Virus record (IMG/VR): IMGVR_UViG_3300025890_000176
Location: 1-22,534 of that record
DNA: 22,534 nucleotides
Strand: one strand, 5' to 3'
From: a virus
Shown: piece by piece, positions 3,128-22,046 of the stretch
Layout: the number at the start of each line of letters is the position of its first letter
Position numbering within the stretch: position 1 is the first letter of the stretch
Notes under the pieces: generated by a model
The model's database searches: none
The model's input: only the letters and a program-made list of their open reading frames with translations
What the model was told of the DNA's origin: nothing
Made by a program: the position numbers and the translations under genes

Positions 3128-3156
3128 TTGACATTGACGGTGATTTCCTGTATATT
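3128..3156 (+). promoter_or_regulatory. sigma70-type promoter for the primase/RNR block
   Basis: TTGACA at 3128-3133, a 17-base spacer and TATATT at 3151-3156. The predicted transcription start, about 7 bases after the -10, falls at 3163-3164, which coincides with the primase ATG. The gap between the two genes is only 42 bases and is filled by this element. Confidence 0.6.
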
Positions 3157-3163
3157 ATGACAT

Positions 3164-4183
3164 ATGAATTATATCGATACAAAGTACATTTCCCTAATAT
3201 CCCCTCGTCTGAGGAACTTCAAGAGAAAGACTGATTATCTCTGGCAGTTCTCATGCCCGTACTGTGGTGACTCACAGAAGATACGGACTAAGGCAAGAGG
3301 GTTTATCTATAGAACAAAGAATGACCTTTTCTATAAATGTCACAACTGTTCTGTGGGTACAAATCTATCTAAATTGATAGAACATGTAGATTCAAATTTA
3401 CACAAGGAATATGTACTAGAACGGTACAAAGAAGGTCTTACTTCCAATGGTCGAGGGGATAAGACGCCTGGGGCAGGCATTAAGGCGCCTGACTTCAAGT
3501 TTAAGAAACCTGTGTTTCGTAAGTCACTGAAACTGGATTCGTTTTTGCAACTTGAAAAAAATCACCCTGCTATCAAATTTTTATCTGATAGATGCATCAG
3601 CGAAGAGCTCTGGAACGATATATATTTCTGTCCAAAGTTTTTTGAATATGTCAATGGACATGTTAAAGACAAGTTCCCCTCATTAAGTGGTGACCATCCA
3701 AGGATGGTAATTCCATTTAGGAAAGAGGATGGAGAGGTCTTTGCATTTCAAGGACGGGCATTTGGGGATGAACCCCAAAAATATATTACTATAATCTTGG
3801 ACAAAGAACATCCCAAGATTTTTGGATTAGATAGAGTTAACAAAGAACATACGGTGTATGTTGTTGAAGGCCCTATCGACAGTCTTTTTCTAAAGAACTG
3901 TATCGCAGTTGCACAGAGTGATTTGCGTGTTCCACAGTTCAAAGACAATGCGGTACTCGTTCCAGATAACGAACCTCGCAATGAACAGGTCTGTAAACAG
4001 ATTGAACGGTGTATCGATGAAGGATATAGTGTTTGCATCTGGCCACAGAGTATTTTAGAAAAAGATATAAACGACATGATTCTTTCTGGAAAGACTCCAG
4101 TAGAGATTCAAGAAATAATACATACTAACACCCACAAAGGATTGCAGGCAAAAACCGTTTTCAATTCTTGGAAGAAAATATAA
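3164..4183 (+). CDS. 61: DNA primase, T4 gp61 type
   Basis: 339 residues, close to T4 gp61. The N-terminal zinc-binding module has CPYC at 31-34 and CHNC at 59-62. The central TOPRIM-like core shows VYVVEGPIDS (231-240, catalytic Glu 235), LVPDNEPRN (265-273) and a downstream KDINDMI (300-306). It makes the RNA primers for lagging-strand synthesis at the phage fork with the gp41-type helicase, which is not in the window. There is no convincing ribosome-binding site in front of ATG 3164, and the predicted transcript start nearly coincides with the ATG, so translation may be leaderless or rely on upstream read-through. The 189-base frame overlapping its start is a shadow. Confidence 0.93.
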   Translation: MNYIDTKYISLISPRLRNFKRKTDYLWQFSCPYCGDSQKIRTKARGFIYRTKNDLFYKCHNCSVGTNLSKLIEHVDSNLHKEYVLERYKEGLTSNGRGDKTPGAGIKAPDFKFKKPVFRKSLKLDSFLQLEKNHPAIKFLSDRCISEELWNDIYFCPKFFEYVNGHVKDKFPSLSGDHPRMVIPFRKEDGEVFAFQGRAFGDEPQKYITIILDKEHPKIFGLDRVNKEHTVYVVEGPIDSLFLKNCIAVAQSDLRVPQFKDNAVLVPDNEPRNEQVCKQIERCIDEGYSVCIWPQSILEKDINDMILSGKTPVEIQEIIHTNTHKGLQAKTVFNSWKKI

Positions 4184-8159: not shown

Positions 8160-8188
8160 ATTAACCAAAACAAAGTAGGAGAATGAAA

Positions 8189-8347
8189 ATGGGTAAATGG
8201 TTTGCGAAATTATTTCCACACCAACCAAATCCAGTTGACATTGTACGCTTTATTAGAACAGAGTATGCGAATGAAGTCAAACATCTCAGAGATGACGATG
8301 TTATTGCATTTTATGACCATATTATGTCGAAAAAAAGGAGAGCGTAG
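8189..8347 (+). CDS. small basic protein of the accessory module
   Basis: 52 residues from ATG 8189, selected because GGAG at 8178-8181 sits seven bases upstream; the ATG at 8183 is too close to it. The sequence (MGKWFAKLFPHQPNPVDIVR then a charged helix and the basic end SKKRRA) has no known domain. The next gene's ribosome site overlaps its 3' end, so it is the first gene of the 8189-8777 group. A longer frame covering the same DNA (8202-8396) is a shadow. Function unknown. Confidence 0.65.
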   Translation: MGKWFAKLFPHQPNPVDIVRFIRTEYANEVKHLRDDDVIAFYDHIMSKKRRA

Positions 8348-8349
8348 AT

Positions 8350-8559
8350 ATGTCTATAGGATTAGTGTTGAGACACACTTATCAAGAAACTTGTGAAATC
8401 TGTGAAAAGATTGCACATTTAGTAAGCAAGGTATGGGACGGTATTGTTGCACATGCTGAGATTGTTGGAACTGCGAGAGCAGCTGCAGAACTTTCTCGTC
8501 AAGGATACCATAAGGAAGCGAAAGCACTTATGTTAGAATTGGATAGGATGAAAAGATAA
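8350..8559 (+). CDS. small alpha-helical protein next to DUF1127
   Basis: 69 residues with a strong AAGGAG upstream. The C-terminal half (TARAAAELSRQGYHKEAKALMLEL, residues 41-64 in two helices) resembles short helical proteins of alphaproteobacteria that accompany DUF1127-type proteins; this is from memory and unverified. The N-terminal half contains a CEIC pair (15-18). It overlaps the DUF1127 gene by one base, so the two are translationally coupled. It was probably acquired from a host. Confidence 0.72.
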   Translation: MSIGLVLRHTYQETCEICEKIAHLVSKVWDGIVAHAEIVGTARAAAELSRQGYHKEAKALMLELDRMKR

Positions 8560-8777
8560 TGACTGTACTTACACAAACTTACTGTGCGTTTTGTGATGTT
8601 ATTTCTGATTTGTATAAAAACTTCAGAAAATCTATCACACCAAAAATGGACAAAAAAATCTACAGAGAACTTGCCAGTCTTACTGACAGGGAACTAAACG
8701 ACATGGGTATTTGTCGTGGTGATATTACAAATATTGCTATGGGTAAACATGTACCTAGAGATGGTTGGACAAAATAA
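8559..8777 (+). CDS. DUF1127 small protein
   Basis: 72 residues. The core YRELASLTDRELNDMGICRGDI (about 35-56, shown here in its motif order: RELAxLxDRELxDxGxxRxDI) is a clear DUF1127 signature. DUF1127 proteins are short, basic and most abundant in alphaproteobacteria, where members have been linked to RNA turnover and to phosphate and carbon metabolism. In phage DNA this is unusual and supports an alphaproteobacterial host. An extra N-terminal segment with two Cys (9 and 12) precedes the domain. The gene ends the small-protein group and is followed by a promoter/hairpin and a Na/Pi cotransporter homologue. Confidence 0.85.
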   Translation: MTVLTQTYCAFCDVISDLYKNFRKSITPKMDKKIYRELASLTDRELNDMGICRGDITNIAMGKHVPRDGWTK

Positions 8778-8874: not shown

Positions 8875-9345
8875 ATGAAAGATAAACTCTGGAAGAAGGT
8901 AAGTAAAATGGATTTAGGAAACCCTGTAATCACCACCCTTGTGGGTCTGGTGATTTTTTATATTGGACTCAAAACATTCTCAGGCGGCATGAAGTCGATG
9001 GGAAATATGGAACATCTAACTTGGTTTATTGCAAATCCATATTATATGTTCTTTGGTGGAATCATTATGACATTGCTCTGGCAATCGTCTAGTCTATCCA
9101 CTACGGCAATCATCGCACTAGTCGCTTCTGGTGCAGTACCACTGCCTGCCGCAATCGCTTGTGTACTTGGTGCAAACATTGGAACAACTGGAACTATCTG
9201 GTTAGCAGGACTTCTGGTTTCAGATGGAATGCCGAAGGGTGACACTTTGCGAATAGCACTCGCACATACAGGGGTAAACCTATTCATGGCTGCAACCCTA
9301 CTACCTTTTGTACATCATATTGCAAGATTCTTAGGTAGATTCTAA
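8875..9345 (+). CDS. half-length Na+/phosphate cotransporter (NptA/PF02690-like)
   Basis: 156 residues from ATG 8875, chosen for GGAG at 8865-8868 (an in-frame ATG at 8863 overlaps that site). The signature motifs of Na/Pi cotransporters are present once: GGMKSMG (37-43), LLWQSSSLSTTAI (67-79, the QSSS ion/phosphate motif), GANIGTTGT (99-107) and the later helix HTGVNLFMA (131-139). About four to five hydrophobic segments cover residues 17-150. Bacterial NptA proteins carry two such repeats plus a PhoU-like tail; this protein is a single repeat, which would have to dimerise to form a transporter. It sits in the inner membrane by inference, possibly supporting phosphate uptake for DNA synthesis. 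Confidence 0.85.
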   Translation: MKDKLWKKVSKMDLGNPVITTLVGLVIFYIGLKTFSGGMKSMGNMEHLTWFIANPYYMFFGGIIMTLLWQSSSLSTTAIIALVASGAVPLPAAIACVLGANIGTTGTIWLAGLLVSDGMPKGDTLRIALAHTGVNLFMAATLLPFVHHIARFLGRF

Positions 9346-9371
9346 AAAATAAAATAAACTTTTTTACTAAG

Positions 9372-9397
9372 TCCCTGTTTTTACAGGGATTTTTTTT
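9372..9397 (+). terminator. intrinsic terminator after the Na/Pi gene
   Basis: TCCCTGT (9372-9378) and ACAGGGA (9383-9389) form a perfect 7-base stem with a TTTT loop, followed by eight T (9390-9397). It closes the accessory module, and a strong promoter starts 12 bases later. The terminator at 15893-15917 has nearly the same design. Confidence 0.92.
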
Positions 9398-9408
9398 GGC
9401 GATTTGCC

Positions 9409-9437
9409 TTGACTTTGTTGTGAAAACAAGTTATAGT
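9409..9437 (+). promoter_or_regulatory. early-type promoter with TGTT..AACA operator-like spacer
   Basis: TTGACT at 9409-9414, 17 bases, TATAGT at 9432-9437. The spacer contains TGTTGTGAAAACA (9416-9428), a 13-base imperfect inverted repeat shared with the promoters at 9965, 10822, 15941 and 16274. The leader includes AATGAGAGAGG (9450-9460), which serves as ribosome site for the gene at 9470. Confidence 0.85.
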
Positions 9438-9469
9438 ATATGTATAGTCAATGAGAGAGGAACTTAATT

Positions 9470-9730
9470 ATGGAAACAATTTTTATCAGTGCGAACAACG
9501 GTGGTTTGGAAATCTACAAAGGTGTAGGAAATCTGATTGCTGGAAACATCAAGACTGCAAAGACTTTCAAATATGTGATGGATACTCATGGTATTGATGT
9601 TGACGATGATAACATCTACTACACAAGCAGCATGGACTTTGCAGATGAAGAAGGGTTCGCCCATTATGGTGATGCAAAGATACTTGCAGAAGAAGGTTTC
9701 AAGTTGATGGAAATGACAAAGGCGTATTAG
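9470..9730 (+). CDS. small acidic orphan protein
   Basis: 86 residues behind its own promoter. The ribosome site is GAGAGAGG at 9453-9460. An ATG within that leader (9451) is out of frame, which shows that the leader ATG of this promoter family is not the start. The sequence is acidic (VDDDNIYY, SMDFADEEGF) with a helical end (KILAEEGFKLMEM); no signal peptide or known domain. It is the first gene of an array of small, separately promoted genes, a place where T4-like phages keep host-takeover proteins. Function unknown. Confidence 0.75.
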   Translation: METIFISANNGGLEIYKGVGNLIAGNIKTAKTFKYVMDTHGIDVDDDNIYYTSSMDFADEEGFAHYGDAKILAEEGFKLMEMTKAY

Positions 9731-9731
9731 A

Positions 9732-9917
9732 ATGGATCAGTTAACTGCACTACAGAATCAATATGTTTATTTTACAGATATGCTAAAGACACTAGAACGC
9801 AAGAAAAAGAAAACACCAGGCACTGGTTTTGCGAAAATGAAGTGTCGTGAACGGATTGCAGAACTAGAGGCAATCTTTGACAAAATTGATTATGCCTCAC
9901 AAATAACCCATGATTAA
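9732..9917 (+). CDS. small basic coiled-coil orphan protein
   Basis: 61 residues, one base after the preceding stop, so probably co-transcribed from the 9409 promoter. The chain is helical with a very basic patch (LERKKKKTPGTGF, 22-34) and a following helix (CRERIAELEAIFDKI). Size and charge would suit a nucleic-acid or ribosome-binding protein, but no family is recognised. Followed by about 47 bases of non-coding DNA and the next promoter. Confidence 0.65.
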   Translation: MDQLTALQNQYVYFTDMLKTLERKKKKTPGTGFAKMKCRERIAELEAIFDKIDYASQITHD

Positions 9918-9964
9918 GGTGCGACAATCTGTCAAAATAATGCAAAAAAAGATGAATTTAGGCC

Positions 9965-9993
9965 TTGACTTTTGTTCTTAAAACATGTATAAT
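9965..9993 (+). promoter_or_regulatory. early-type promoter with TGTT..AACA operator-like spacer
   Basis: TTGACT at 9965-9970, 17 bases, TATAAT at 9988-9993. Inverted repeat TGTTCTTAAAACA at 9973-9985, then CATG just before the -10. The leader holds AATGAGAAAGG (10006-10016). Confidence 0.92.
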
Positions 9994-10027
9994 ATACTTA
10001 TAAACAATGAGAAAGGACGTTAAAAAT

Positions 10028-10279
10028 ATGATTAATAATGATAAAGTTGAAGTGATAGTTTCTGAAGTGGTTGACTTCATTGCTTATGTAGAGTCTTTCT
10101 ACGGTAATGTTCCCAATGCGGTTTATCCGATTGGTGCGAGTCCCAAAATGATTATCGCTGCAACTAGTAAGTACATCAATTCCCTAAATGACAAAGTTAC
10201 TTGGGGTGGTGGAGATAGTCTTGACAGAGAAAGAGTTAGAGACATTTTGATTGAAGATAATAACTTGGAGTGGAAATAA
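10028..10279 (+). CDS. small orphan protein
   Basis: 83 residues from ATG 10028, 10 bases after the AAGG of the leader. An ATG at 10007 is in frame, but it belongs to the shared leader, whose ATG is out of frame in the sister unit at 9451. The protein is a mixed alpha/beta-looking small domain (VEVIVSEVVDFIAYVESFY, then a polar glycine stretch VTWGGGDSLDRERVRDIL). No known family. The next gene follows by two bases. Confidence 0.75.
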   Translation: MINNDKVEVIVSEVVDFIAYVESFYGNVPNAVYPIGASPKMIIAATSKYINSLNDKVTWGGGDSLDRERVRDILIEDNNLEWK

Positions 10280-10281
10280 TT

Positions 10282-10485
10282 ATGGATACAGTTGGTAGAA
10301 AATTTGAGGTTCATTCATTCAACGAAAAACTTGGTGAGATGGGTTCGCAAGTTGCAGAAATCATTGGACACTGTTGTGGCCCTGATGGTGGTGAAGATAT
10401 ATTAATAATCGACTATGAGAATAAAGATTGGGAAGTAAGTTTACCATTCAGTTCTTTTGTCAAATCAATCATAAAGGAGATATAA
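10282..10485 (+). CDS. small orphan protein
   Basis: 67 residues from ATG 10282; a GTG at 10270 inside the previous gene is in frame but GGAG at 10267-10270 fits the later start. The sequence looks beta-rich (KFEVHSF, EDILIIDYENKDWEVSLPF) with a central CCGPDGG stretch, and a short terminal helix. It resembles small SH3- or KOW-like folds in size only. It is in the same transcription unit as 10028. Function unknown. Confidence 0.7.
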   Translation: MDTVGRKFEVHSFNEKLGEMGSQVAEIIGHCCGPDGGEDILIIDYENKDWEVSLPFSSFVKSIIKEI

Positions 10486-10486
10486 T

Positions 10487-10816
10487 ATGGGTTTACATAT
10501 TAACGTATATAAGAGTAATCTAGGTGATACCACAAATGGTGGAGTGTCAGCAAATTGTAAAGGACTTTGCATTACAAATGTGAGTGGGCCTTTTAATCCT
10601 AGTGAAGAATACCCCGAAGCACAATTAGTTTCAAGGAATGTTATGGGTAGGACTATCGTTAACATTGTTCCAGTGAAAGAAATCGAAAAAGGTTCATGGA
10701 CTATGTTCGGTGGAAACTACGGTGCAACTTCTGATTCAAGGTTCAGTGAAAAAGTTGAAGAGATGATGGGTTCATCATTTTATGGTGCCGTACCAATTCA
10801 CGATAGGGTAGAATAA
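10487..10816 (+). CDS. conserved phage/bacterial hypothetical protein
   Basis: 109 residues after a strong AAAGGAGAT site. Motifs that I recall from a conserved phage and prophage family: MGLHINVYKS at the start, DTTNGGVSA, WTMFGGNY.ATSDSRF (71-85) and FYGAVPIHDRVE at the very end. The family has no assigned biochemical role that I know. It is the last gene of the 9965 promoter unit; a new promoter begins six bases after its stop. Confidence 0.8.
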   Translation: MGLHINVYKSNLGDTTNGGVSANCKGLCITNVSGPFNPSEEYPEAQLVSRNVMGRTIVNIVPVKEIEKGSWTMFGGNYGATSDSRFSEKVEEMMGSSFYGAVPIHDRVE

Positions 10817-10821
10817 AAGCC

Positions 10822-10850
10822 TTGACATTTGTTCTAAAAACATGTATACT
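10822..10850 (+). promoter_or_regulatory. early-type promoter with TGTT..AACA operator-like spacer
   Basis: TTGACA at 10822-10827, 17 bases, TATACT at 10845-10850. Inverted repeat TGTTCTAAAAACA at 10830-10842. The leader carries GATGAGAAAAGAGG before the gene at 10883. Confidence 0.9.
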
Positions 10851-10882
10851 ATGCTAGTAATGATGAGAAAAGAGGTGAGATT

Positions 10883-11434
10883 ATGGAAAAAGCACTTGTA
10901 GATTATATCAATGCCCAAAGAAAAGAGGCAGAAGAGTTTTCTAAAAAAGACGGTTGTTGGATGGGCATGATGCCTGAACCAGAAGATACCAAGTATTGGA
11001 ATGAACGAGTTCCATCTGGTACTCTTGCAGAGTTCAAGAGAACTGACCTTGAGGAAACTGCTTACTACTGTGTTGCTGATGCATACTCTAAGTCTTATGC
11101 TCGTTCTGTTGATTTTGCATCTATGACAGATGCAGAGTTGGATGCTGAAATCGCATCTGCTTCTAAGATTAATGAAGAGAACTTTATTGCAGAAAAGAAA
11201 GCAGAAGAACTTGCGGTTACAGAATTCAAAACTCTTGTCAAAGAAACCATTGACTTGGGTGCTGGTGATGAGGAAACTGCACTAAGGTGGTTGACTCAAA
11301 ATGAAGAGTTCTATCATTCACAAGATGTAGAGTCTTGGGTTTGGGACAAAGGAATTCTCTTCTGTGACTATGGTAGACAACTAGTCAAGAAGTTAGAAAA
11401 AATTGTGAAATTTAAATCATGGGAGATTGCGTAA
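10883..11434 (+). CDS. acidic orphan protein
   Basis: 183 residues with AGAGG upstream. The protein is rich in Glu and Ala and appears mainly helical (LVDYINAQRKEAEEF, then ASMTDAELDAEIASASKI, FIAEKKAEELAVTEFK). Tryptophans are scattered (CWMGMM, RWLTQNEEF, VESWVWDKG). No signal peptide, membrane segment or known motif. It heads an operon of four or five short overlapping genes. Acidic, helical early proteins of phages often bind host enzymes, but that is only an analogy. Confidence 0.8.
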   Translation: MEKALVDYINAQRKEAEEFSKKDGCWMGMMPEPEDTKYWNERVPSGTLAEFKRTDLEETAYYCVADAYSKSYARSVDFASMTDAELDAEIASASKINEENFIAEKKAEELAVTEFKTLVKETIDLGAGDEETALRWLTQNEEFYHSQDVESWVWDKGILFCDYGRQLVKKLEKIVKFKSWEIA

Positions 11435-11601
11435 TGGTTGATGTGTTAGAAGATATTGGTGTTCTGGAGAATTTGTTGATTGCAATGAATGAGGGTGCGT
11501 CTGATGAAAAGAGGATGGCACTTAACTCTGTTGAGTCGCTTCTAAATAAAAAGAAGCAAATCATAACTGAGTTTGAAAAGGAGTTCGCACCAAATGATTA
11601 G
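11434..11601 (+). CDS. small helical orphan protein
   Basis: 55 residues from ATG 11434, which overlaps the previous stop (TAATG); GGGAG at 11420-11424 is the ribosome site, which disfavours the in-frame ATG at 11419. Two predicted helices (VLEDIGVLENLLIAM and RMALNSVESLLNKKKQIITEF) make a helical hairpin. No family recognised. It overlaps the next gene by eight bases. Confidence 0.68.
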   Translation: MVDVLEDIGVLENLLIAMNEGASDEKRMALNSVESLLNKKKQIITEFEKEFAPND

Positions 11602-11809
11602 GAACAAAACTACAAAGAGTGAAATCGTAATTGATTTAACTGGGCCAGATGGAAATGCATACGTTCTATTGGGTAAGGCAAAAGACCTTGCAAGACAATT
11701 GGAACTGGATGCAACTAAAATTTGTAATGAAATGACTACTGGTGATTACGAAAACTTGATTTCAGTGTTCGATAAATATTTCGGACATATCATTGTATTG
11801 GAGCGTTAA
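11594..11809 (+). CDS. conserved marine phage small protein
   Basis: 71 residues from ATG 11594, with AAGGAG at 11578-11583 inside the preceding gene; a TTG at 11573 is in frame but precedes that site. The motifs IDLTGPDGNAYVLLGKAKDLA (split at about 15-35) and MTTGDYENLISVFDKYFG (48-65) are familiar from several T4-like marine phages, where the protein is uncharacterised. Small alpha/beta domain, no Cys cluster. Stop and the next start are adjacent. Confidence 0.78.
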   Translation: MIRNKTTKSEIVIDLTGPDGNAYVLLGKAKDLARQLELDATKICNEMTTGDYENLISVFDKYFGHIIVLER

Positions 11810-12013
11810 ATGACAGGATTAGAGCATTCTCTTCTTGCTACAGGATTACTCGCCATATTCTATTATGTGGGTGTTCATGTGGGAAAGAAAGAAAAGATTG
11901 AGGACATAGTGTCAACTATGTTGGACAAGTTAGAACGTGGTAATTTTATCAAGGTAGAGTTAGACAAAAAAACTGGCGAAAAAGAGTTAATACCTCTTGA
12001 CAAAGCTATTTAA
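11810..12013 (+). CDS. small single-TM protein
   Basis: 67 residues starting directly after the previous stop. Residues about 5-24 form one membrane segment (HSLLATGLLAIFYYVGVHVG); then comes a charged cytosolic-type domain with KLERGNFIKVELDKKTGEKEL. The second half looks like a short beta hairpin. Similar TM-plus-basic-domain proteins occur in other marine phages. A promoter (11997-12025) overlaps its 3' end. Confidence 0.72.
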   Translation: MTGLEHSLLATGLLAIFYYVGVHVGKKEKIEDIVSTMLDKLERGNFIKVELDKKTGEKELIPLDKAI

Positions 12014-12025
12014 ATGGTGTACTAT
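11997..12025 (+). promoter_or_regulatory. sigma70-type promoter within a gene end
   Basis: TTGACA at 11997-12002, 17 bases, TACTAT at 12020-12025. It lies across the 3' end of the 11810 gene, and the leader has GTGAGAAAG before the gene at 12053. The spacer lacks the TGTT..AACA repeat. Confidence 0.7.
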
Positions 12026-12052
12026 GTATATTGATTGTGAGAAAGTAGAATT

Positions 12053-12196
12053 ATGATTTATAAGACTTTGGGTGATGCAATTATCGCCGCAAAAGAAATG
12101 TGTACTGTATTGGACACATATGTAAAAATTACTAAAGCAAAGGACGGATATGAATTGTTCGGAACTGGAGCTGTAGTAAAAACCGTGAAGGAGTAA
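12053..12196 (+). CDS. very small orphan protein
   Basis: 47 residues (MIYKTLGDAIIAAKEM... ending VVKTVKE), preceded by GAGAAAG in the promoter leader. It is alanine/lysine-rich with a helix at the start and a short strand-like end (YELFGTGAVV). Only two bases separate it from the next ATG, and its last codons supply the AAGGAG for that gene. Coding is supported by promoter, spacing and coupling, not by homology. Confidence 0.6.
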   Translation: MIYKTLGDAIIAAKEMCTVLDTYVKITKAKDGYELFGTGAVVKTVKE

Positions 12197-12198
12197 AA

Positions 12199-12609
12199 AT
12201 GAAAAAACTATCTATTGGACTTTGTGCCATGTTGGTAATGTCGAGTACGGCATTCGCTCATGAAGCACAAGTTACAGATGTTAACAAGAACGTAATTAAT
12301 CGTGTACCCTACAATGTAGAAGTGTGTACGAATGTTACTTCTGGTGGAGACAAATCTGGTGACATGCTAAAGGGTGCTATCATTGGTGGTATTCTAGGTA
12401 AAGTAGTTACCAAGAAAGATAATGGTGCGGCCGCAGGGGCAGTACTTGGTGGGATTATCGGACACGATAATTCTGGAGCAACAGCGTCTACTAAAAGAGT
12501 ATGTAGTATTGAGACACGTTATGACGAAGAGGTGACAACTGTTTATTCACACAGTATCGTTACTTTTTACCATAATGGACAACAGTATAGAGTACAATTT
12601 AGTAAGTAG
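12199..12609 (+). CDS. exported glycine-zipper protein
   Basis: 136 residues. An N-terminal signal peptide ends at AFA (18-20), so the mature protein starts near His21. Residues 54-93 are a glycine-zipper region (repeating GxxxG-like steps such as GAIIGGILG and GAVLGGIIG) of the type seen in 17-kDa surface antigens and outer-membrane-associated proteins. Two Cys (43 and 101) flank it. The C-terminal part is beta-like (TTVYSHSIVTFYHNGQQY). It probably inserts into or coats the host envelope. It resembles host 2TM glycine-zipper lipoproteins but has no lipobox. Confidence 0.85.
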   Translation: MKKLSIGLCAMLVMSSTAFAHEAQVTDVNKNVINRVPYNVEVCTNVTSGGDKSGDMLKGAIIGGILGKVVTKKDNGAAAGAVLGGIIGHDNSGATASTKRVCSIETRYDEEVTTVYSHSIVTFYHNGQQYRVQFSK

Positions 12610-12623
12610 ACAAACCAAGAATA

Positions 12624-12701
12624 CTGCCCGTAGCTCAGTTGGATTAGAGCAACGGTCTTCTAAACCGTAGGTCGCAAGTTCGAGTCTTGCCGGGCAGGCC
12701 A
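12624..12701 (+). tRNA. tRNA-Arg (anticodon TCT)
   Basis: Full cloverleaf: acceptor CTGCCCG (12624-12630) with CGGGCAG (12691-12697); D stem GCTC/GAGC; anticodon stem ACGGT/ACCGT with loop CTTCTAA, giving anticodon TCT; T stem GCAAG/CTTGC with loop TTCGAGT. The discriminator G and the CCA end are encoded (12698-12701). It reads AGA/AGG, and AGA is common in this phage's genes. It lies in the 106-base gap between the glycine-zipper gene and the bS21 gene, so it is likely cut out of an mRNA. Confidence 0.96.
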
Positions 12702-12715
12702 AATATGAGGATTTA

Positions 12716-12988
12716 ATGAGGTATAATAAATTTAATAAGTATAATAAGAAACGTAATTTTAAACAAGAAGAGCGTCCTGCTGGGATGACTGTGATTGTTC
12801 GTGATAATGATGTAAACAAAGCGTTAAGAGTTTTAAAGAAGAAACTCTTGCGTGATGGGTTCTTTCAAGAATTAAGAGATAGAACCTTTTATGAGTCCAA
12901 GGGAACTAAACGTAGAAAAGCAAAGGATGCTGCGACACGAAGATTCAAACGAAACTTGGAAAAACAAAAACTTGAACGTGGATATTAA
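12716..12988 (+). CDS. rpsU: phage-encoded ribosomal protein bS21
   Basis: 90 residues. Residues about 24-90 follow the bS21 pattern: a starting strand (MTVIVRDND), ALRVLKKKLLRDGFFQELRDR, then the conserved FYESKGTKRRKAKDAATRR (58-76) and a basic tail. bS21 binds the 30S platform next to the anti-SD end of 16S rRNA and assists initiation; phage copies are known from marine phages, including SAR11 phages. An unusual basic, Asn/Lys-rich extension (residues 1-23, MRYNKFNKYNKKRNF...) precedes the core. GAGG at 12707-12710 is the ribosome site. The gene directly follows tRNA-Arg, so two translation functions are adjacent. Confidence 0.92.
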   Translation: MRYNKFNKYNKKRNFKQEERPAGMTVIVRDNDVNKALRVLKKKLLRDGFFQELRDRTFYESKGTKRRKAKDAATRRFKRNLEKQKLERGY

Positions 12989-12999
12989 AAAGGTGACTT

Positions 13000-13530
13000 A
13001 TGAAAAGGAATTTGAACGTAGAGAACGACTCTACTCTACCGAAGAAACGTAAACCTCGTAAGCCTATGACTGCTGAACAGAAGGCAGCGGCAAGTGAGAG
13101 ACTTGCAATAGCGAGAGAGAAACGTCTAAAAGAAAATCCCCCCGAATATAAATCCATTCATCCGTCTGTACTCGCAAGAGGTGATGACGATGCATGGAGT
13201 CATATCAAAGTCAAACAGTGGATTAAAACACAAAAGAGTTTAATGTCTACTGAACGCTCTGCAATGAGAGCAAAAGTAAAAGGTGCAGAAGCACGTTACG
13301 AAAGTCATCGTGGTTACATTCGTAACATGGAAACATATCTTAGAACAGGTGAATGGTTAGACTTGTTTTGGGGTGAATACCAACAGAATAAATGTAAACA
13401 AGTATGTTTAGTTATGGCATACCATCCAGACGGAACACCAAAAAGAAATATTGGAACTTGGTATCCAGACATTCAATGTGAATGGACAAAGGAAATGGAA
13501 GAGGAAGATTTTGATGGAACAAAAGGGTAA
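13000..13530 (+). CDS. conserved marine T4-like phage protein
   Basis: 176 residues. The N-terminal third is very basic and disordered-looking (LPKKRKPRKPMTAEQKAAASERL). The middle is helical (KQWIKTQKSLMSTERSAMRAK, YESHRGYIRNMETYL), and the C-terminal part contains EWLDLFWGEYQ and a strand-rich end (CLVMAYHPDGTPKRNIGTWYPD). I recall similar proteins next to replication genes of marine T4-like phages without assigned role. The basic tail suggests nucleic-acid contact. It overlaps the next gene by 17 bases. Confidence 0.78.
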   Translation: MKRNLNVENDSTLPKKRKPRKPMTAEQKAAASERLAIAREKRLKENPPEYKSIHPSVLARGDDDAWSHIKVKQWIKTQKSLMSTERSAMRAKVKGAEARYESHRGYIRNMETYLRTGEWLDLFWGEYQQNKCKQVCLVMAYHPDGTPKRNIGTWYPDIQCEWTKEMEEEDFDGTKG

Positions 13531-13900
13531 AGTAATTCAGTTCCCTTTGCAGGCAACACCAAATCCAAATATTAAAGTTGATAGTTATGCACTACAAATG
13601 CAACAAGATATGACATTTGCAGACCATCTAACTGAAGGTTTGGTTGTTAATATGATTCACAATATGAGTGAGAATGGTGTTGACACAGAAGATGAAGATT
13701 TTATTGCTGATATATCAATGATGATAGAAATGGTAAAGTCTACACTTTATAGAAGTTGTAACATACCACATCCATTGCAAACCGTTACGGATGAATTTGT
13801 TACGACAACAAAAGAGAATGGTAAAACTAGTGTGTATCTAGATTGTTTTGAAATAAGAGATGCCTGTATTGAAATGGAAGAAGAAGATGATGAGGAGTAA
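13514..13900 (+). CDS. conserved phage protein with acidic tail
   Basis: 128 residues from ATG 13514; GAGGA at 13500-13504 fits this start, so the 63-base in-frame upstream extension is not used. The protein starts MEQKGKVIQFPLQATPNPN, has a helical centre (DHLTEGLVVNMIHNMSENG; ADISMMIEMVKSTLYRS) and ends in a Glu/Asp tail (EMEEEDDEE). A similar small protein often precedes RNase H or similar genes in marine T4-like phages. No catalytic motif visible. A promoter starts six bases after its stop. Confidence 0.75.
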   Translation: MEQKGKVIQFPLQATPNPNIKVDSYALQMQQDMTFADHLTEGLVVNMIHNMSENGVDTEDEDFIADISMMIEMVKSTLYRSCNIPHPLQTVTDEFVTTTKENGKTSVYLDCFEIRDACIEMEEEDDEE

Positions 13901-13906
13901 AATCTA

Positions 13907-13935
13907 TTGACTTCTTGCCTATTTTAGGGTACTAT
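13907..13935 (+). promoter_or_regulatory. sigma70-type promoter for RNase H
   Basis: TTGACT at 13907-13912, 17 bases, TACTAT at 13930-13935. The following TATATAAATG overlaps a near-match to the late element TATAAATA, so the gene might be read in two phases. The spacer begins TCTTGC, as in the 17011 promoter, and lacks the TGTT..AACA repeat. Confidence 0.72.
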
Positions 13936-13967
13936 ATATAAATGTAAATAAAAGTGAGTATTAAGTT

Positions 13968-14828
13968 ATGATATTAGTTGATATGAATCAAGTTACCATT
14001 AGTAATCTAATGATGCAACTAGGTTCAAAGCGTGACAACGAACTGGATGAAAATCTAGTTCGACATATGGTATTAAACTCTATAAGAGGATACCGTAGTC
14101 GATTCCATGAAGCCTTTGGTGAAATGGTACTTTGTTACGATAGCAAAAAGTATTGGAGAAGGGATTACTTCCCCAACTACAAATCTAATCGAAAGAAGGA
14201 CAGAGCAAACTCTGGACTTGATTGGAACACCATCTTTGAAACTCTGAATAACATCAGAGATGAAATCAAAGAAATCTTTCCCTACAAAGTTTTAGAAGTA
14301 GAGGGTGCAGAAGCAGATGATGTTATTGCATCTATCGTACAGCATGTTGCTGAAACTCCTAGTGAGTTTGAGCATATCCTTATATTGTCTGGTGACAAAG
14401 ATTTCATTCAGTTGCAGAAACACAACTTTGTGAAACAATATTCTCCCACATTGAAAAAATTTGTGAAAGATATTGACCCCGACATATATATAAGGGAGCA
14501 TGTACTAAAAGGTGATAGAAGTGACGGTGTACCTAATTTTCTTTCGCCAGATAATACTTTCGTTGATGAGTTGAGACAGAAACCATTATCCAAGAAAAAG
14601 TTGGAGACATGGATTGACTTAGAACCATCTGACTATTGTTCAGATGAAATGATGAGAAATTATCAACGAAATAAAACCCTAATTGATTTAGAATGTATAC
14701 CTAGTGACTTGAAGGTAAAGATTCTGGAAGAATACCAGAATGCTGAACACGGTGACAGGTCGAAACTACTAAATTATTTTATTAACAAAAGATTGAAAAA
14801 TCTTATGAATGACATTGGAGACTTTTAA
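13968..14828 (+). CDS. rnh: T4-type RNase H, 5'-3' exonuclease (FEN1-like)
   Basis: 286 residues, near the 305 of T4 RNase H. Acidic active-site motifs of the FEN/PIN-like 5' nuclease fold are in order: Asp5 (LVDMN), Asp58 (LCYDSK), EGAEADD (112-118), SGDKDF (141-146) and GDRSDGVPN (182-190). The arch segment KYWRRDYFPNYKSNRK (61-75) matches the T4 enzyme. It removes RNA primers and adjacent DNA from lagging-strand fragments, working with the gp61 primase of this window. It has its own promoter and a weak ribosome site (GTGAG). Its end overlaps nothing; the next ATG is one base away. Confidence 0.93.
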   Translation: MILVDMNQVTISNLMMQLGSKRDNELDENLVRHMVLNSIRGYRSRFHEAFGEMVLCYDSKKYWRRDYFPNYKSNRKKDRANSGLDWNTIFETLNNIRDEIKEIFPYKVLEVEGAEADDVIASIVQHVAETPSEFEHILILSGDKDFIQLQKHNFVKQYSPTLKKFVKDIDPDIYIREHVLKGDRSDGVPNFLSPDNTFVDELRQKPLSKKKLETWIDLEPSDYCSDEMMRNYQRNKTLIDLECIPSDLKVKILEEYQNAEHGDRSKLLNYFINKRLKNLMNDIGDF

Positions 14829-14829
14829 T

Positions 14830-15282
14830 ATGGTTCAAGATACCTATACACCTCTACTTTCTGAGGTATTAAAGAAAGTACATAATGCAAAGACGAAGGC
14901 AAAGAAAGTTGAACTCTTGCAAAAATATGATTGTGACGCATTGCGTGTAATCATTAAATCATCATTCGACCCTAACATCGAATGGGTGATTCCAAAAGGT
15001 GAAGTTCCCTTTACAGCAAATGATGCTGAAGAAGGAACTGAACATACTGTACTACGAAGAGAGTACAAAAAACTTTATCGTTTTGTGAAAGGTGGTGATG
15101 ATGGATTAGTTGGTTTTAAACGTGAAAACATGTTCATTCAATTACTAGAAGGATTACATAAAAGTGAAGCTGACCTCGTTATCTCTGCAAAAGATAAAAA
15201 ACTACATCAAGCATTCAAAGGACTCTCTGAGAATGTCGTTAAAGAAGCGTTCCAATGGAACGACAGTTACAACAAGGAATAA
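14830..15282 (+). CDS. DUF6433-like conserved phage protein
   Basis: 150 residues from ATG 14830, one base after the RNase H stop (an in-frame TTG at 14809 lies in RNase H, but a GGAG at 14817-14820 favours 14830). Family motifs recalled from T4-like marine phages: PLLSEVLKKVHNAKTKAKKVELL, DALRVIIKSSFDPNIEWVIP, EGTEHTVLRREYKKLYRFVKGG and MFIQLLEGLHKSEADLVISAKDKKL (each seen in parts). Adjacent to RNase H in many such genomes, so a link to replication or recombination is plausible. Biochemical function unknown. Confidence 0.82.
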   Translation: MVQDTYTPLLSEVLKKVHNAKTKAKKVELLQKYDCDALRVIIKSSFDPNIEWVIPKGEVPFTANDAEEGTEHTVLRREYKKLYRFVKGGDDGLVGFKRENMFIQLLEGLHKSEADLVISAKDKKLHQAFKGLSENVVKEAFQWNDSYNKE

Positions 15283-15286
15283 AGAT

Positions 15287-15796
15287 ATGAAAGATAACTA
15301 TCAACATTGTTTGGAGATGATTCTCCATCACGAGGGTGGTTATGTCAACCATCCAAAAGACCCAGGCGGTGAAACTAATCTTGGCATTACCAAGAGAGTT
15401 TACGAAGATTTCGGTGGTACGAAAGACATGAAAGACTTAACTGTAGAGGATGCCGCACCCATCTACGAAAAAAATTATTGGAATCGTCTAAAGTGTGACG
15501 ATATTCCAGACGGGCTTGACCTCTGCGTATTCGATTTCGGAGTAAACGCTGGTACAGGACGAAGTGCAAAGTATTTGCAAACAATGATTGGGACAACTGC
15601 CGATGGTGGCATTGGCCCCAATACACTGAGGAAACTTGGTGAGTATATTGACGAACATGGTCTTGAAACAACTATCAAGAACTTTCAAGAAGCACGTCAA
15701 TCATACTATGAAAAATTAAAAACATTTGAAACATTCGGTAGGGGTTGGACTCGTAGAGTTACAGAAACTACAGAAGAAGCTCTAAAAATGTGTTGA
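15287..15796 (+). CDS. GH108-type endolysin (N-acetylmuramidase)
   Basis: 169 residues from ATG 15287; the longer frame back to 15164 would overlap the DUF6433 gene and is unlikely. The N-terminal GH108 signature is HHEGGYVNHPKDPGGETN (14-31) with catalytic Glu16, followed by LGITKRVYEDF. The middle shows YWNRLKCDDIPDGLDLCVFDFGVN (about 64-87 in sequence) and then a peptidoglycan-binding type-3 segment with DGGIGPNTLRKL and the terminal GRGWTRRV. It cleaves the glycan strand of the cell wall at lysis. It has no signal peptide, so a holin is needed. It is about 13 kb away from the spanin cluster. Its TGA overlaps the -35 box of the sRNA promoter. Confidence 0.92.
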   Translation: MKDNYQHCLEMILHHEGGYVNHPKDPGGETNLGITKRVYEDFGGTKDMKDLTVEDAAPIYEKNYWNRLKCDDIPDGLDLCVFDFGVNAGTGRSAKYLQTMIGTTADGGIGPNTLRKLGEYIDEHGLETTIKNFQEARQSYYEKLKTFETFGRGWTRRVTETTEEALKMC

Positions 15797-15821
15797 CTTA
15801 TGCGTACCTTTAAGGTATGAT
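15793..15821 (+). promoter_or_regulatory. promoter of the small RNA, with own inverted repeat
   Basis: TTGACT at 15793-15798 (overlapping the endolysin stop), 17 bases, TATGAT at 15816-15821. The expected transcription start is 15828-15829, exactly where the RNA hairpin begins. TACCTTTAAGGTA (15805-15817) is a 13-base inverted repeat overlapping the -10, different from the TGTT..AACA repeat of the neighbouring promoters. Confidence 0.8.
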
Positions 15822-15827
15822 ATAAAC

Positions 15828-15917
15828 AATGGATGGGAATTCACCTCTCTCTCGACTTTCTCTCTCAGAATTTCCATCCATTACCTCAAAAGCCCTTGTT
15901 TTTCAAGGGTTTTTTTT
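15828..15917 (+). ncRNA. candidate anti-Shine-Dalgarno small RNA, about 90 nt
   Basis: Bounded by a promoter (15793-15821) and an intrinsic terminator (15893-15917), with no reading frame of note. AATGGATGGGAATTC (15828-15842) pairs over 15 bases with GAATTTCCATCCATT (15868-15882; one G-U pair). The 25-base loop (15843-15867) has 21 pyrimidines and contains CCTCTCTC (15844-15851) and CTTTCTC (15856-15862). These are exact complements of the ribosome-binding leaders GAGAGAGG (9453-9460) and GAGAAAG (seen before the genes at 10028, 16334 and 17072). A further unpaired ACCTC follows at 15883-15887. Base pairing with these leaders, and perhaps with host SD sites, is the likely action. Expression and targets are inferred. 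Confidence 0.72.
15893..15917 (+). terminator. intrinsic terminator of the small RNA
   Basis: CCCTTG (15893-15898) and CAAGGG (15904-15909) with a five-T loop, then eight T (15910-15917); AAAA before the stem can extend it. The U-tail would also suit Hfq binding. Nearly identical in design and in the following GGC to the terminator at 9372-9397. Confidence 0.92.
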
Positions 15918-15940
15918 GGCCAAAATAATGAAGAAATGCC

Positions 15941-15969
15941 TTGACTTTTGTTCTAATAACATGTATACT
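15941..15969 (+). promoter_or_regulatory. early-type promoter with TGTT..AACA operator-like spacer
   Basis: TTGACT at 15941-15946, 17 bases, TATACT at 15964-15969. Inverted repeat TGTTCTAATAACA at 15949-15961 followed by TG before the -10. The leader holds AAGAAAGAAAGG instead of the usual AATGAGAAAGG. Confidence 0.92.
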
Positions 15970-16000
15970 ATAAGTATAATCAAGAAAGAAAGGAAATTAT

Positions 16001-16264
16001 ATGATTAAAAATTTGAATATACCAGAAACTTGTGGGTGGTTGGGAATGATTCTCATCCACGGAGCAACTGCTCCAACCTCAATTTCAGTTCTAATGGGAT
16101 GGTCAACTGACTTACCCCCATTGAATTTCATACTGTTAGTATGGTTAGGACTGTTCTTGTTCCTAGTAAGAGCAATATATGCTAAGGATACTTTGTACAT
16201 TGTATCTAATGCGATTGGGTTTTCACTAAACAGTCTTTTATTAAGTTTAATTGCATTTAATTAA
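16001..16264 (+). CDS. small three-TM membrane protein
   Basis: 87 residues behind its own promoter and an AAAGGAAAT site. Three hydrophobic segments are visible: about 11-33 (GWLGMILIHGATAPTSISVL), 40-58 (LNFILLVWLGLFLFLVRAI) and 64-86 (YIVSNAIGFSLNSLLLSLIAF). Length and three-helix topology match SemiSWEET/PQ-loop half-transporters, but no PQ motif is present, so this is only a size comparison. It is probably an inner-membrane protein made early in infection. Function unknown. Confidence 0.78.
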   Translation: MIKNLNIPETCGWLGMILIHGATAPTSISVLMGWSTDLPPLNFILLVWLGLFLFLVRAIYAKDTLYIVSNAIGFSLNSLLLSLIAFN

Positions 16265-16273
16265 AAAAATGCC

Positions 16274-16302
16274 TTGACTTTTGTTATGATAACATGTATA
16301 CT
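16274..16302 (+). promoter_or_regulatory. early-type promoter with perfect TGTT..AACA palindrome
   Basis: TTGACT at 16274-16279, 17 bases, TATACT at 16297-16302. TGTTATGATAACA (16282-16294) is a perfect inverted repeat around a central base, the best example of the family. The leader holds AATGAGAAAGG (16315-16325). Confidence 0.93.
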
Positions 16303-16333
16303 ATAGGTATAGTTAATGAGAAAGGAAAAAATT

Positions 16334-16579
16334 ATGAAGTTTGAAAAATGGTTAGATACTCTAGTCGAAGAAAAGAACCTAGATATAGAACATGTATTTG
16401 AATATAAAGGCCCTGTGTGGGGTATGAATATGATTCCTTTGGGTGCAGTAATTGAACAGATTAAAGCGTTCCACCCAAAAACTCAACAGATGACAAAAAA
16501 CAGATTAGTTGAGATTGATTTTAAAAACGGTGATGTAATGCACTTCTTTGGTTACATTGCTCAAAAGATGGCACAATAA
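16334..16579 (+). CDS. small orphan protein
   Basis: 81 residues from ATG 16334, 8 bases after AAAGGA; the in-frame ATG at 16316 is the leader ATG of this promoter family and is not favoured. The sequence begins with a helix (FEKWLDTLVEEKNLDIEHVF) and continues with a mixed segment (GPVWGMNMIPLGAVIEQIKAF) and a strand-rich end (NRLVEIDFKNGDVMHFFGYI). No family recognised. Overlaps the metallopeptidase start by one base, so the pair is coupled. Confidence 0.75.
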   Translation: MKFEKWLDTLVEEKNLDIEHVFEYKGPVWGMNMIPLGAVIEQIKAFHPKTQQMTKNRLVEIDFKNGDVMHFFGYIAQKMAQ

Positions 16580-17001
16580 TGAAAAATAGAAATGTTATAT
16601 CAGTTGTTGGTGGTGTTAAACATGAGAGACACATTGCAGAAAAATGTGTTGCTCACATGATTGACAAACTAATGCCTAGAATGAAAACCTTGGATATTGA
16701 GGTTGAGATAAAAAACATTCCAGGCTCTGCAATTGGTTATTGTGATATGCAAGATACCAATAGAGAATTCACTCTGGAAATTCAGAAGGGATTAACTCTA
16801 AAAGAATTAGTAACAACCGTGGTTCACGAGATGATACACGTTAAACAGTACGCAAGAAAAGAAATGGATGTCGAAGGTAAAACTTGGAAAAGATGTTTCG
16901 TTGTTGAGGGTACTGGTTACTACGACCTTCCTTGGGAAAAGGAAGCTTACCGTCTGCAAGACAAATATGCACAGTCAGTTTGGGATGCAGATATTTTGTA
17001 A
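16579..17001 (+). CDS. SprT-like zinc metallopeptidase
   Basis: 140 residues. The zinc-binding motif HEMIH at 83-87 sits in a helix (VTTVVHEMIHVKQY) and a candidate third ligand lies in the WEKEA segment (119-123), the arrangement of compact SprT-like gluzincins. Length fits the minimal protease domain. SprT/Spartan relatives cleave proteins crosslinked to DNA, but the phage members are uncharacterised, so a host-protein target or DNA-protein repair are both open. Start shares a base with the upstream stop; unit driven by the 16274 promoter. Confidence 0.85.
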   Translation: MKNRNVISVVGGVKHERHIAEKCVAHMIDKLMPRMKTLDIEVEIKNIPGSAIGYCDMQDTNREFTLEIQKGLTLKELVTTVVHEMIHVKQYARKEMDVEGKTWKRCFVVEGTGYYDLPWEKEAYRLQDKYAQSVWDADIL

Positions 17002-17010
17002 AAAATAGCC

Positions 17011-17039
17011 TTGACATCTTGCTTAATGCTTGATACAAT
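17011..17039 (+). promoter_or_regulatory. sigma70-type promoter
   Basis: TTGACA at 17011-17016, 17 bases, TACAAT at 17034-17039. The leader AATGAGAAAGAGG (17052-17064) matches the family, but the spacer lacks the TGTT..AACA repeat. Confidence 0.85.
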
Positions 17040-17071: not shown

Positions 17072-17344
17072 ATGATTAGTAATGAAATGCAAAAAACCCT
17101 AATGGGTATGACAGTTGGTGAATTGACAGAACTTCAGAAGTTTTGTTCAGACCTCAAAGTGATGAAAAACAAAACTGGTTTAGAAGTTGGCCAGAGAGTT
17201 TATGTTGTTCAGAAAACAAAAAAGACTCCAGGCACTATCAGAAAGATTAACAAGACAAGAGCGATTGTTGATATGGTGACTAACCCTATCAGTGGTGCTG
17301 TGTCTGGTTACAATGTTCCATTTTCAATGTTGGAGGCTGCGTAA
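17072..17344 (+). CDS. small protein with possible KOW/SH3-like barrel
   Basis: 90 residues with GAGG eight or more bases upstream of ATG 17072. The first part is helical (GELTELQKFCSDLKVMKNK); from residue about 38 the pattern GQRVYVVQKTKKTPGTIRKINKTRAIVDM resembles a small beta barrel of KOW/SH3 type, seen in ribosome- or RNA polymerase-associated proteins. Positive charge in this part supports RNA contact. This is a fold guess, not a family match. Overlaps the next ATG by one base. Confidence 0.75.
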   Translation: MISNEMQKTLMGMTVGELTELQKFCSDLKVMKNKTGLEVGQRVYVVQKTKKTPGTIRKINKTRAIVDMVTNPISGAVSGYNVPFSMLEAA

Positions 17345-19499: not shown

Positions 19500-20026
19500 T
19501 GCTAAAAGAACTACTCGTTTCACTTATGATAACTGGTACACCAGTTGCGATATCAGATATTTCATCTGTAGAACAATTTACTTTTGACGAGGCAACTTGT
19601 CTCGCTCAGAATGTTTACCATGAAGCAAAGAACCAACCCCAAGTAGGGCAGATGGCAGTAATGTCTGTAACACTTAATCGTGTTTCTGATGATAGATTTC
19701 CAGATACAATCTGTGAAGTTGTTAAAGAAGGCCCATCTCGACCTAGTTGGAAAGGCACAGGTGAAATGATTCCAGTTCGACATAAGTGTCAATTCAGTTG
19801 GTGGTGTGATGGCAAATCAGATAAGATACATAAACAGAACCAAGAAATATATAATGACATTTTTGTCTTTACATTGGGGATTGTTTCTGGTAAAATAACA
19901 CTATTAGATGTCACAGAAGGAGCAACACATTATCATGCAGACTATGTGTCTCCGTCTTGGGCAAGTTCTAAAACTAAAACAGTGGAAATCGAAGACCACA
20001 TATTTTACAGATGGGAGAAAAAGTGA
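19499..20026 (+). CDS. SleB/CwlJ-type cell-wall hydrolase
   Basis: 175 residues. The Hydrolase_2 (SleB) pattern is clear: ATCLAQNVYHEAKNQP (32-47, catalytic Glu42), GQMAVMSVTLNRV, FPDTICEVV, CQFSWWCDG (97-105) and ATHYHADYVSPSWA. SleB-type enzymes are lytic transglycosylase-like and act on peptidoglycan. The N-terminus (LLVSLMITGTPVAIS) is a weak signal or anchor, so periplasmic export is possible. It is the second wall hydrolase in the window beside the GH108 endolysin, and it is linked to lipoprotein genes, not to the lysis cluster, hinting at a role in entry or envelope remodelling. Confidence 0.9.
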   Translation: MLKELLVSLMITGTPVAISDISSVEQFTFDEATCLAQNVYHEAKNQPQVGQMAVMSVTLNRVSDDRFPDTICEVVKEGPSRPSWKGTGEMIPVRHKCQFSWWCDGKSDKIHKQNQEIYNDIFVFTLGIVSGKITLLDVTEGATHYHADYVSPSWASSKTKTVEIEDHIFYRWEKK

Positions 20027-20580
20027 ATATATTTTATCTAGATGAAGATGCAAAGACAAGTGCAATGATGCATGTGGATTCTCATGCAAGTAAAATGATT
20101 ATCGAATATGCTCAACTCATGTCTACTGCACATCGTGTATTGGATGGTAAACAAGTAAAACGATTGAGTAAAAAGAATCGTTTGCTTACAACTTATGACC
20201 ATCCAGACCCACAACTAGACCATACTTTGTACAAATCTTGTCATGTCAATCATCCTAGTGGTATTTGGGTACGACAGTCCAAGAAAAACTACAGATGGTT
20301 GTATGAAATGTGGACAGAACTGAATACAGAATTCATGTACAGGTATGACAAAAATGTACCACATGAAAGTTATCGTAAACTAAAGTGGGCATTATTCAGT
20401 CCACCAGAGAATATGCCTGAGGGTGTATTTACAGAACCCTTACAGGCAATGCCAGACGATGTAAAGAATGAATCGTCAATAACGGCCTATCGGGATTACT
20501 ATATAAAGTATAAGCAACATTTGGCATCATGGAAAAAGAGGGGTATGCCAGATTGGATGGAGTTAAGACATGCTACATAA
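20023..20580 (+). CDS. conserved T4-like phage protein (MNIFYLD... family)
   Basis: 185 residues from GTG 20023, which has GGGAG at 20013-20017 and overlaps the previous stop; an in-frame ATG at 20011 has no ribosome site. The opening NIFYLDEDAKTSAMMHVDSHASKMIIEYAQLMSTAHR (split, residues 2-38) with its conserved His/Lys pattern and the ending YRDYYIKYKQHLASWKKRGMPDWM are typical of a family seen in many marine T4-like phages. It is sometimes annotated as DNA glycosylase-like; I cannot confirm that from the sequence. Overlaps the next gene by 11 bases. Confidence 0.8.
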   Translation: MNIFYLDEDAKTSAMMHVDSHASKMIIEYAQLMSTAHRVLDGKQVKRLSKKNRLLTTYDHPDPQLDHTLYKSCHVNHPSGIWVRQSKKNYRWLYEMWTELNTEFMYRYDKNVPHESYRKLKWALFSPPENMPEGVFTEPLQAMPDDVKNESSITAYRDYYIKYKQHLASWKKRGMPDWMELRHAT

Positions 20581-20863
20581 AATAAGTGATTTGTGTGATA
20601 AGATAGATTCAATAAAAATGATGAGTGATAAACTTAGGATAATGAAATATAACGAACCTAAGGCTCGAAAGCATGAATTAAATGCATTGATTGAAACTAT
20701 ACAAGCAGACTGTCTCTTAGTTGCTATGGATAAGGGTGAATATTGGAAACCCAACAACGAAGAAAAAGTTGGAAATTCCATTATAGGTGGAACAATGTCT
20801 CCAGAAGAAGAACGAGAATGGATTAGAATTGAACAACAACAGGATGGGAAAAGTACAACATAA
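20570..20863 (+). CDS. conserved phage small protein
   Basis: 97 residues, starting inside the preceding gene (overlap 11) and sharing one base with the next ATG. Mostly helical (KISDLCDKIDSIKMMSDKL, RKHELNALIETIQADCLL) with a glycine-containing break (NSIIGGTMSPEEEREW). No motif I can name. Position between conserved core genes and the tight overlaps support it as part of a stable conserved block ending in phoH. Confidence 0.75.
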   Translation: MLHKISDLCDKIDSIKMMSDKLRIMKYNEPKARKHELNALIETIQADCLLVAMDKGEYWKPNNEEKVGNSIIGGTMSPEEEREWIRIEQQQDGKSTT

Positions 20864-21174
20864 TGCCAACATTTAAATTTAGAAATACGGAAACAGGTGA
20901 AGAGTTTGAAGATTTCCTATCTAACAGTAGAAGAGAAGAACTTTTAAAAAAGAACCCACACATTAAACAGATGCCTTCAATGTTCTCTATCGCTGGTTCT
21001 ACTGGTGACAACATTGATGCCAAAACTGATGATGGTTGGAAAGAGGTTCTTGCAAAAGGGGCAGAGGCGCATCCCGATAGTCAATTAGGACAACGGTATG
21101 GTAAAAAATCTGCAAAACAAATTAAAACGGATGCGGTGTTAGCCAAACATCGACATAAATGGAGTACTAATTAA
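20863..21174 (+). CDS. FmdB-like protein without zinc cysteines
   Basis: 103 residues. The start MPTFKFRNTETGEEFEDF resembles the FmdB-type zinc-ribbon opening (MPxYxYxCxxCGxxFE), but the positions usually held by Cys are occupied by N/T and the protein has no Cys at all. Conserved continuation: KNPHIKQMPSMFSIAGSTGDN, DGWKEVLAKGAEAHPDS and a basic end KHRHKWSTN. This Cys-less form occurs upstream of phoH in other marine T4-like phages as far as I recall. Function unknown. Overlaps phoH by one base. Confidence 0.78.
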   Translation: MPTFKFRNTETGEEFEDFLSNSRREELLKKNPHIKQMPSMFSIAGSTGDNIDAKTDDGWKEVLAKGAEAHPDSQLGQRYGKKSAKQIKTDAVLAKHRHKWSTN

Positions 21175-22017: not shown

Positions 22018-22046
22018 TTGACAATAAAGTGAATATGGTGTATAAT
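22018..22046 (+). promoter_or_regulatory. consensus sigma70 promoter for the nuclease gene
   Basis: TTGACA at 22018-22023, 17 bases, TATAAT at 22041-22046: both hexamers perfect. The leader has AATAATGAGG before ATG 22078. The spacer lacks the TGTT..AACA repeat. Confidence 0.93.

Follow-up and report, generated by a model that had tools for sequence, protein, structure and literature searches.

A spacer palindrome as the putative operator of one early promoter class in Melnitz-like T4-like phages

The window analysed here is a virus record of 22,534 bp, a fragment of a T4-like phage. Across most of positions 9000-17000 it shares ~93% identity with Methylophilales phage Melnitz (MZ577097; Kyanoviridae, T4-like), the host of which is OM43 strain H5P1. 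In the available sections of the Melnitz publication, 31 early sigma70 promoters were predicted, no middle promoters were found, and marine T4-like phages were described as devoid of MotA promoters, with a timing called simplified (PMC9004378); a repeat in the promoter spacers is not mentioned in these sections (PMC9004378).

Five forward-strand promoters of the window combine TTGAC[AT], a spacer of exactly 17 bp and TATA[ACG]T, and each contains the inverted repeat TGTTnTnAnAACA (hereafter the dyad) between the two hexamers, as the first-pass annotation had described. The promoter at 9409..9437 (TTGACT-T-TGTTGTGAAAACA-AGT-TATAGT, dyad at 9416-9428 with the core GTGAA) drives an 86-aa ORF at 9470-9730. 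At 9965..9993 (dyad TGTTCTTAAAACA, 9973-9985; -10 TATAAT), the driven ORF starts near 10028 and belongs to phrog_7799. The third promoter, 10822..10850 (dyad TGTTCTAAAAACA, 10830-10842; -10 TATACT), drives a 183-aa ORF at 10883-11434, and the fourth, 15941..15969 (dyad TGTTCTAATAACA, 15949-15961; -10 TATACT), an 87-aa hydrophobic ORF at 16001-16264. The dyad is perfect in the fifth, 16274..16302 (TGTTATGATAACA, 16282-16294; -10 TATACT), which drives an ORF from near 16334 together with a SprT-like ORF at 16579-17001. The gap between the -35 hexamer and the dyad is 1 bp in the promoter at 9409 and 2 bp in the remaining ones. All five have a Melnitz orthologue with the same dyad (L001:31702, L001:32277, L001:33499, L001:38659 and L001:38992, respectively), and Melnitz carries 12 dyad promoters in total.

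The pattern TTGACW-N17-TATANT was found 7 times in the window, with 0.10 occurrences expected. Exact TGTTnTnAnAACA also occurs 7 times, namely in the five promoters and at 5371 and 18737; the chance of finding it in a given spacer is ~1.5e-5 when five registers are allowed. When TGTTN5AACA was searched across the whole window with at most 1 mismatch, no enrichment was seen (34 sites, 27 expected), so the signal lies in the concentration of the dyad in promoter spacers.

Six further forward-strand promoters were confirmed to have 17-bp spacers and no dyad, three of them with weaker -10 boxes. They precede the ORF 3164-4183, a DNA primase in Melnitz (promoter 3128..3156), a 47-aa ORF at 12053-12196 (11997..12025, TACTAT), a flap endonuclease/RNase H ORF at 13968-14828 (13907..13935, TACTAT), a small RNA (15793..15821) and a 90-aa ORF at 17072-17344 (17011..17039, TACAAT); the sixth, 22018..22046, has its Melnitz counterpart at L001:44721, upstream of a PDDEXK nuclease gene. 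The dyad was present in 0/29 orthologues of promoter 11997, in 0/14 of promoter 17011 and in 0/30 of promoter 13907, where the orthologous spacers are unrelated to one another. A general palindrome across all non-dyad spacers was considered and rejected, as a slight excess over letter shuffles disappeared against column shuffles. A second group of non-dyad promoters (L002:23657 and others) carries an additional TTGAC within the spacer, ~11 bp from where the -35 begins, which resembles an 11-bp direct repeat; an example reads TTGACT ttctcTTGACAagatgg TATTAT.

Pattern scans of IMG/VR yielded at least 300 loci with a dyad promoter, and in several hundred related loci TGTTnTnAnAACA was located in the spacer of sigma70 promoters close to consensus; these loci are mutually related, and the promoter collection was partly assembled using the dyad pattern itself. 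The first two scans contributed 214 loci, nearly all of them Melnitz-like by translated comparison, with a median amino-acid identity to Melnitz of 57% among the matches listed. The dyad thus persists at a median identity of 57%, and the possibility raised at the outset, that the spacer sequence varies among relatives while the promoters persist, was not what was observed.

In a set of 163 unique promoters, conservation falls on the ten symmetric positions of TGTTnTnAnAACA, and the three N positions vary almost freely; the centre base is distributed A15/G14/C12/T11 over 52 distinct dyads. Symmetric conservation is independent of register, these 163 promoters showing it at offsets of 0, 1 and 2 bp from the -35 alike. 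The whole dyad shifts together, to starts 0, 1, 2 or 4 bp past the -35, within a spacer kept constant at 17 bp. In a register-free scan, the matches listed for the 17-bp spacer included at least 44 at offset 1, at least 35 at offset 2 and at least 11 each at offsets 0 and 4; the ~27 other combinations listed were scattered, some being second readings of one site, and few of the listed matches had longer spacers where these were allowed. The dyad is restricted to promoters with a 17-bp spacer, this length being found in 553/580 over all loci when 16-18 bp were scanned. More than one register occurs among relatives in 21/25 dyad gene families and, within single loci carrying several dyad promoters, in 92/184; the SprT-like gene has the dyad in 50/50 cases, at offsets 0, 1 and 2.

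The first-pass annotation had named compensatory changes between the two half-sites as a criterion. No reliable one was detected and no covariation of the outer half-site pairs was found, both halves being kept at one sequence; as half-sites held at the same sequence are expected of a protein operator, compensatory change is a poorly suited yardstick here. Apparent covariation of the inner T-A pair (p = 0.0005) was set aside because it probably stems from low-scoring sequences such as attgacgaatcaacagt, which are likely not family members.

When promoters were grouped into families according to the first protein encoded downstream, the dyad was present in 25 families and absent from 38, and 8 were mixed (22/44/7 in an earlier grouping). 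The proposed division into operator-controlled and uncontrolled gene units therefore holds across relatives: gene families are nearly all-or-none for the dyad, and, as in a regulon, a defined gene set has the site and others do not. With gene names taken from Melnitz annotations matched to the families, the dyad class includes the SprT-like protein, a 319-aa phage/plasmid-like protein, a nucleotidase, a HhaI-like methylase and many small unknowns, and the families without the dyad include flap endonuclease, DNA polymerase, primase, a gp32-like protein, a gp55-like protein and the PDDEXK nuclease. The dyad class consists mostly of small, host-takeover-like genes.

On these sequence data we consider TGTTnTnAnAACA to be the putative operator of a dimeric DNA-binding protein that, in Melnitz-like phages, represses one class of strong early promoters of the sigma70 type, with a probability of about 0.7. 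The promoters have the make-up of sigma70-type early promoters (-35 TTGACA, 17-bp spacer, -10 TATAAT, ribosome-binding site downstream), and the dyad has that of a dimeric-protein operator, with symmetric and conserved half-sites, a free centre and independence of register. The earlier suggestion that a protein reads the dyad as an operator remains the best explanation; repression itself we infer. A shift of up to 4 bp would not disturb occlusion, whereas an activator needing polymerase contact would not easily accommodate it. Early in infection, host RNA polymerase would use all near-consensus promoters of both classes. A dimeric protein, more likely phage-encoded, would then occupy the spacer and exclude polymerase, so that the takeover genes would be shut off, and expression of the replication and transcription genes, whose promoters have no operator, would continue.

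That a host regulator reads the dyad instead, either exploited by the phage or silencing it, appears rather unlikely. Neither SAR11 relative, HTVC008M or Mosig, has the dyad, which could accordingly follow the host, and the search for a phage-encoded binder gave no convincing protein. Against this stand the lack of the dyad in three unrelated phages of OM43, namely Venkman (which also infects H5P1), MEP401 and MEP301 (first 30 of 34.8 kb), and the outcome in cellular genomes: among 84,980 bacterial and archaeal genomes scanned, a promoter with the dyad turned up once, in a Clostridiales genome. This site (L131:354-380, in a metagenome-assembled genome) carries TTGACTTTTGTTTTAAAAACATGTATACT upstream of a gene resembling a heavy-metal (copper chaperone-like) protein and is probably due to chance. 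The early promoters of HTVC008M (L128-L130) have TTGACT and TGTGATATAAT in common, and their mid-spacer is not conserved.

The first-pass annotation had recommended searching the phage for a small HTH protein, which produced a weak candidate, gp224, and no clear binder. When 105 small Melnitz proteins were compared with Pfam and PHROGs, no clear HTH besides gp224 appeared among the best 25 families of each list. gp224 (L003:38447-38710 in Melnitz) has a weak Pfam match to HTH_39, below the cut-off; its AlphaFold2 model (pLDDT 71) is a winged helix, for which Foldseek returned ArsR/MarR-like winged helices with a best E of 0.02. Homologues occur also in HTVC008M and Mosig, both of which are without the dyad. 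gp224 is the best HTH candidate, yet nothing ties it to the dyad. Two other proteins, the phrog_385 'transcriptional regulator' (20863-21174) and the phrog_624 'DNA binding protein' (20011-20580), were rejected as binders, being likewise present in the dyad-free HTVC008M and Mosig. The promoter of gp224 (L003:38367-38395) contains a different dyad, ACCCTAgaaaTAGGGT, which becomes CCTC..GAGG in relatives (orthologous promoters in L024, L034, L039, L066, L093, L099 and L204), and autoregulation is possible.

Improbable, too, is that the dyad is an activator site, MotA-like as in T4 middle promoters, which would raise or delay expression of the dyad class. MerR-type spacer activators require spacers of 19-20 bp, in contrast to the 17 bp found here. 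Sliding by up to 4 bp is hard to square with a fixed polymerase contact, and no activator should be needed, since the dyad promoters are near consensus and optimally spaced. Melnitz is T4-like and is without recognisable MotA promoters in the sections of PMC9004378 at hand, and a divergent activator could therefore exist; moreover, the MotA box of T4 is centred at -30, near the position of the dyad, and likewise marks a promoter class by an element specific to the phage, close to the -35 region (position from the accessible part of PMC2988021). The T4 box (TGCTTtA), however, replaces the -35, MotA promoters being without this hexamer (same part of PMC2988021), and is non-palindromic and bound by a monomer, whereas all dyad promoters keep a near-perfect -35 and the site is symmetric.

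Very unlikely is a reading in which the spacer merely belongs to an early-promoter consensus that aids RNA polymerase. Early promoters of T4 likewise have strong UP, -35 and -10 elements, are used by unmodified host polymerase and contain additional consensus regions (PMC2988021, in the accessible part), and the dyad promoters share further features, namely a C before the -35, a TG before the -10 and a purine-T-A start. A polymerase consensus nevertheless fails to explain the dyad pattern: the palindrome shifts its register relative to both hexamers, its middle is free precisely at the symmetric N positions, and promoters just as close to consensus in these phages show no spacer conservation, mid-spacer information being near zero across 182 non-dyad promoters taken from the same loci.

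T4-type promoter-stem-loop cassettes consist of early promoters by terminators, scattered among small genes, and to our knowledge no common operator is associated with them. That the dyad is a functionless part of such recently multiplied cassettes is scarcely credible and does not account for the pattern: terminators do directly precede two copies (around 9373-9398 and 15890-15917), but the copies within Melnitz are alike in core and dyad and hardly in their flanks (upstream identity 37%, against 32% when shuffled, with spacers 83% identical), so that the homologous surroundings of a duplicated cassette are missing and the suspected recent duplication of whole promoters is not borne out, and orthologous promoters of strongly diverged phages keep the dyad with changing register.

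Among known systems, the proposed operator resembles spacer repressor/operator regulons, in which a short palindrome with a common symmetric consensus likewise lies between the -35 and -10 of strong sigma70 promoters; here, by comparison, it would serve a T4-like lytic phage, with at least 12 promoters in one genome and four registers. Protein p4 of the lytic phage phi29, made early, represses early promoters and recognises inverted repeats, at few promoters and upstream sites, whereas a spacer operator would act genome-wide here. Literature searches brought up no operator described for early promoters in lytic phages, T4-like or other. Shut-off of early genes in T4-like phages is unsettled even in T4, where it is independent of AsiA and persists without it, no operator being described in the accessible part of PMC2988021; in the phages studied here it would come from the operator. 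An operator placed genome-wide on a single promoter class would represent a concrete, testable switch in an abundant group of ocean phages. The operator model predicts which genes are silenced first, and the dyad provides a bait sequence for isolation of the protein.

Next to the fourth dyad promoter, a candidate anti-Shine-Dalgarno small RNA is encoded at 15828..15917 on the forward strand, with a 15-bp stem, a CU-rich loop (ACCUCUCUCUCGACUUUCUCUCUCA; as RNA, CCUCUCUCUC...CUCUCUC) and an intrinsic terminator; the Melnitz annotation places a 59-aa ORF (gene 66) over it. The exact loop pattern was found in 44 IMG/VR stretches, and an Rfam search gave no family at threshold. Comparison of 15 distinct relatives shows an almost unchanged loop and a stem that varies with pairing kept, the stem energy being -23.8 kcal/mol for a relative's own arms and -12.7 for arms swapped between dissimilar relatives. 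Pairing of the loop with gene leaders scored -13.3 for dyad families and -8.8 for non-dyad families (p = 4e-6), and scrambled and plain anti-Shine-Dalgarno control loops gave a difference of 1.7-2.6 between the classes. These values suggest that dyad-class genes may also be silenced at translation by the small RNA. A two-level shut-off of one early class, by a phage-encoded repressor at the operator and by the CUCUCUC small RNA blocking ribosome-binding sites, can be put forward tentatively from the predicted pairings. The promoter of the small RNA (15793-15821; L038, L012, L187, L304) has an inverted repeat of its own, GTACC..GGTAT, which extends into the -10; its arms vary among relatives, and complementarity is kept in several.

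The loops of the Cuckoo/CcsR small RNAs are pyrimidine-rich and anti-Shine-Dalgarno. These RNAs likewise form a hairpin with such a loop, and DUF1127 proteins accompany CcsR small RNAs in alphaproteobacteria (PMC10253847); DUF1127 genes are present in the phage too, whereas here the small RNA is phage-borne, has a CUCUCUC loop and is transcribed separately from the DUF1127 genes. Three small neighbouring ORFs lie at 8183-8777 of the window, of which the third is DUF1127 in Melnitz and the first two are alike by eye. At 12624-12988, a tRNA-Arg (anticodon TCT) is directly followed by an ORF that is annotated as ribosomal protein S21 in Melnitz.
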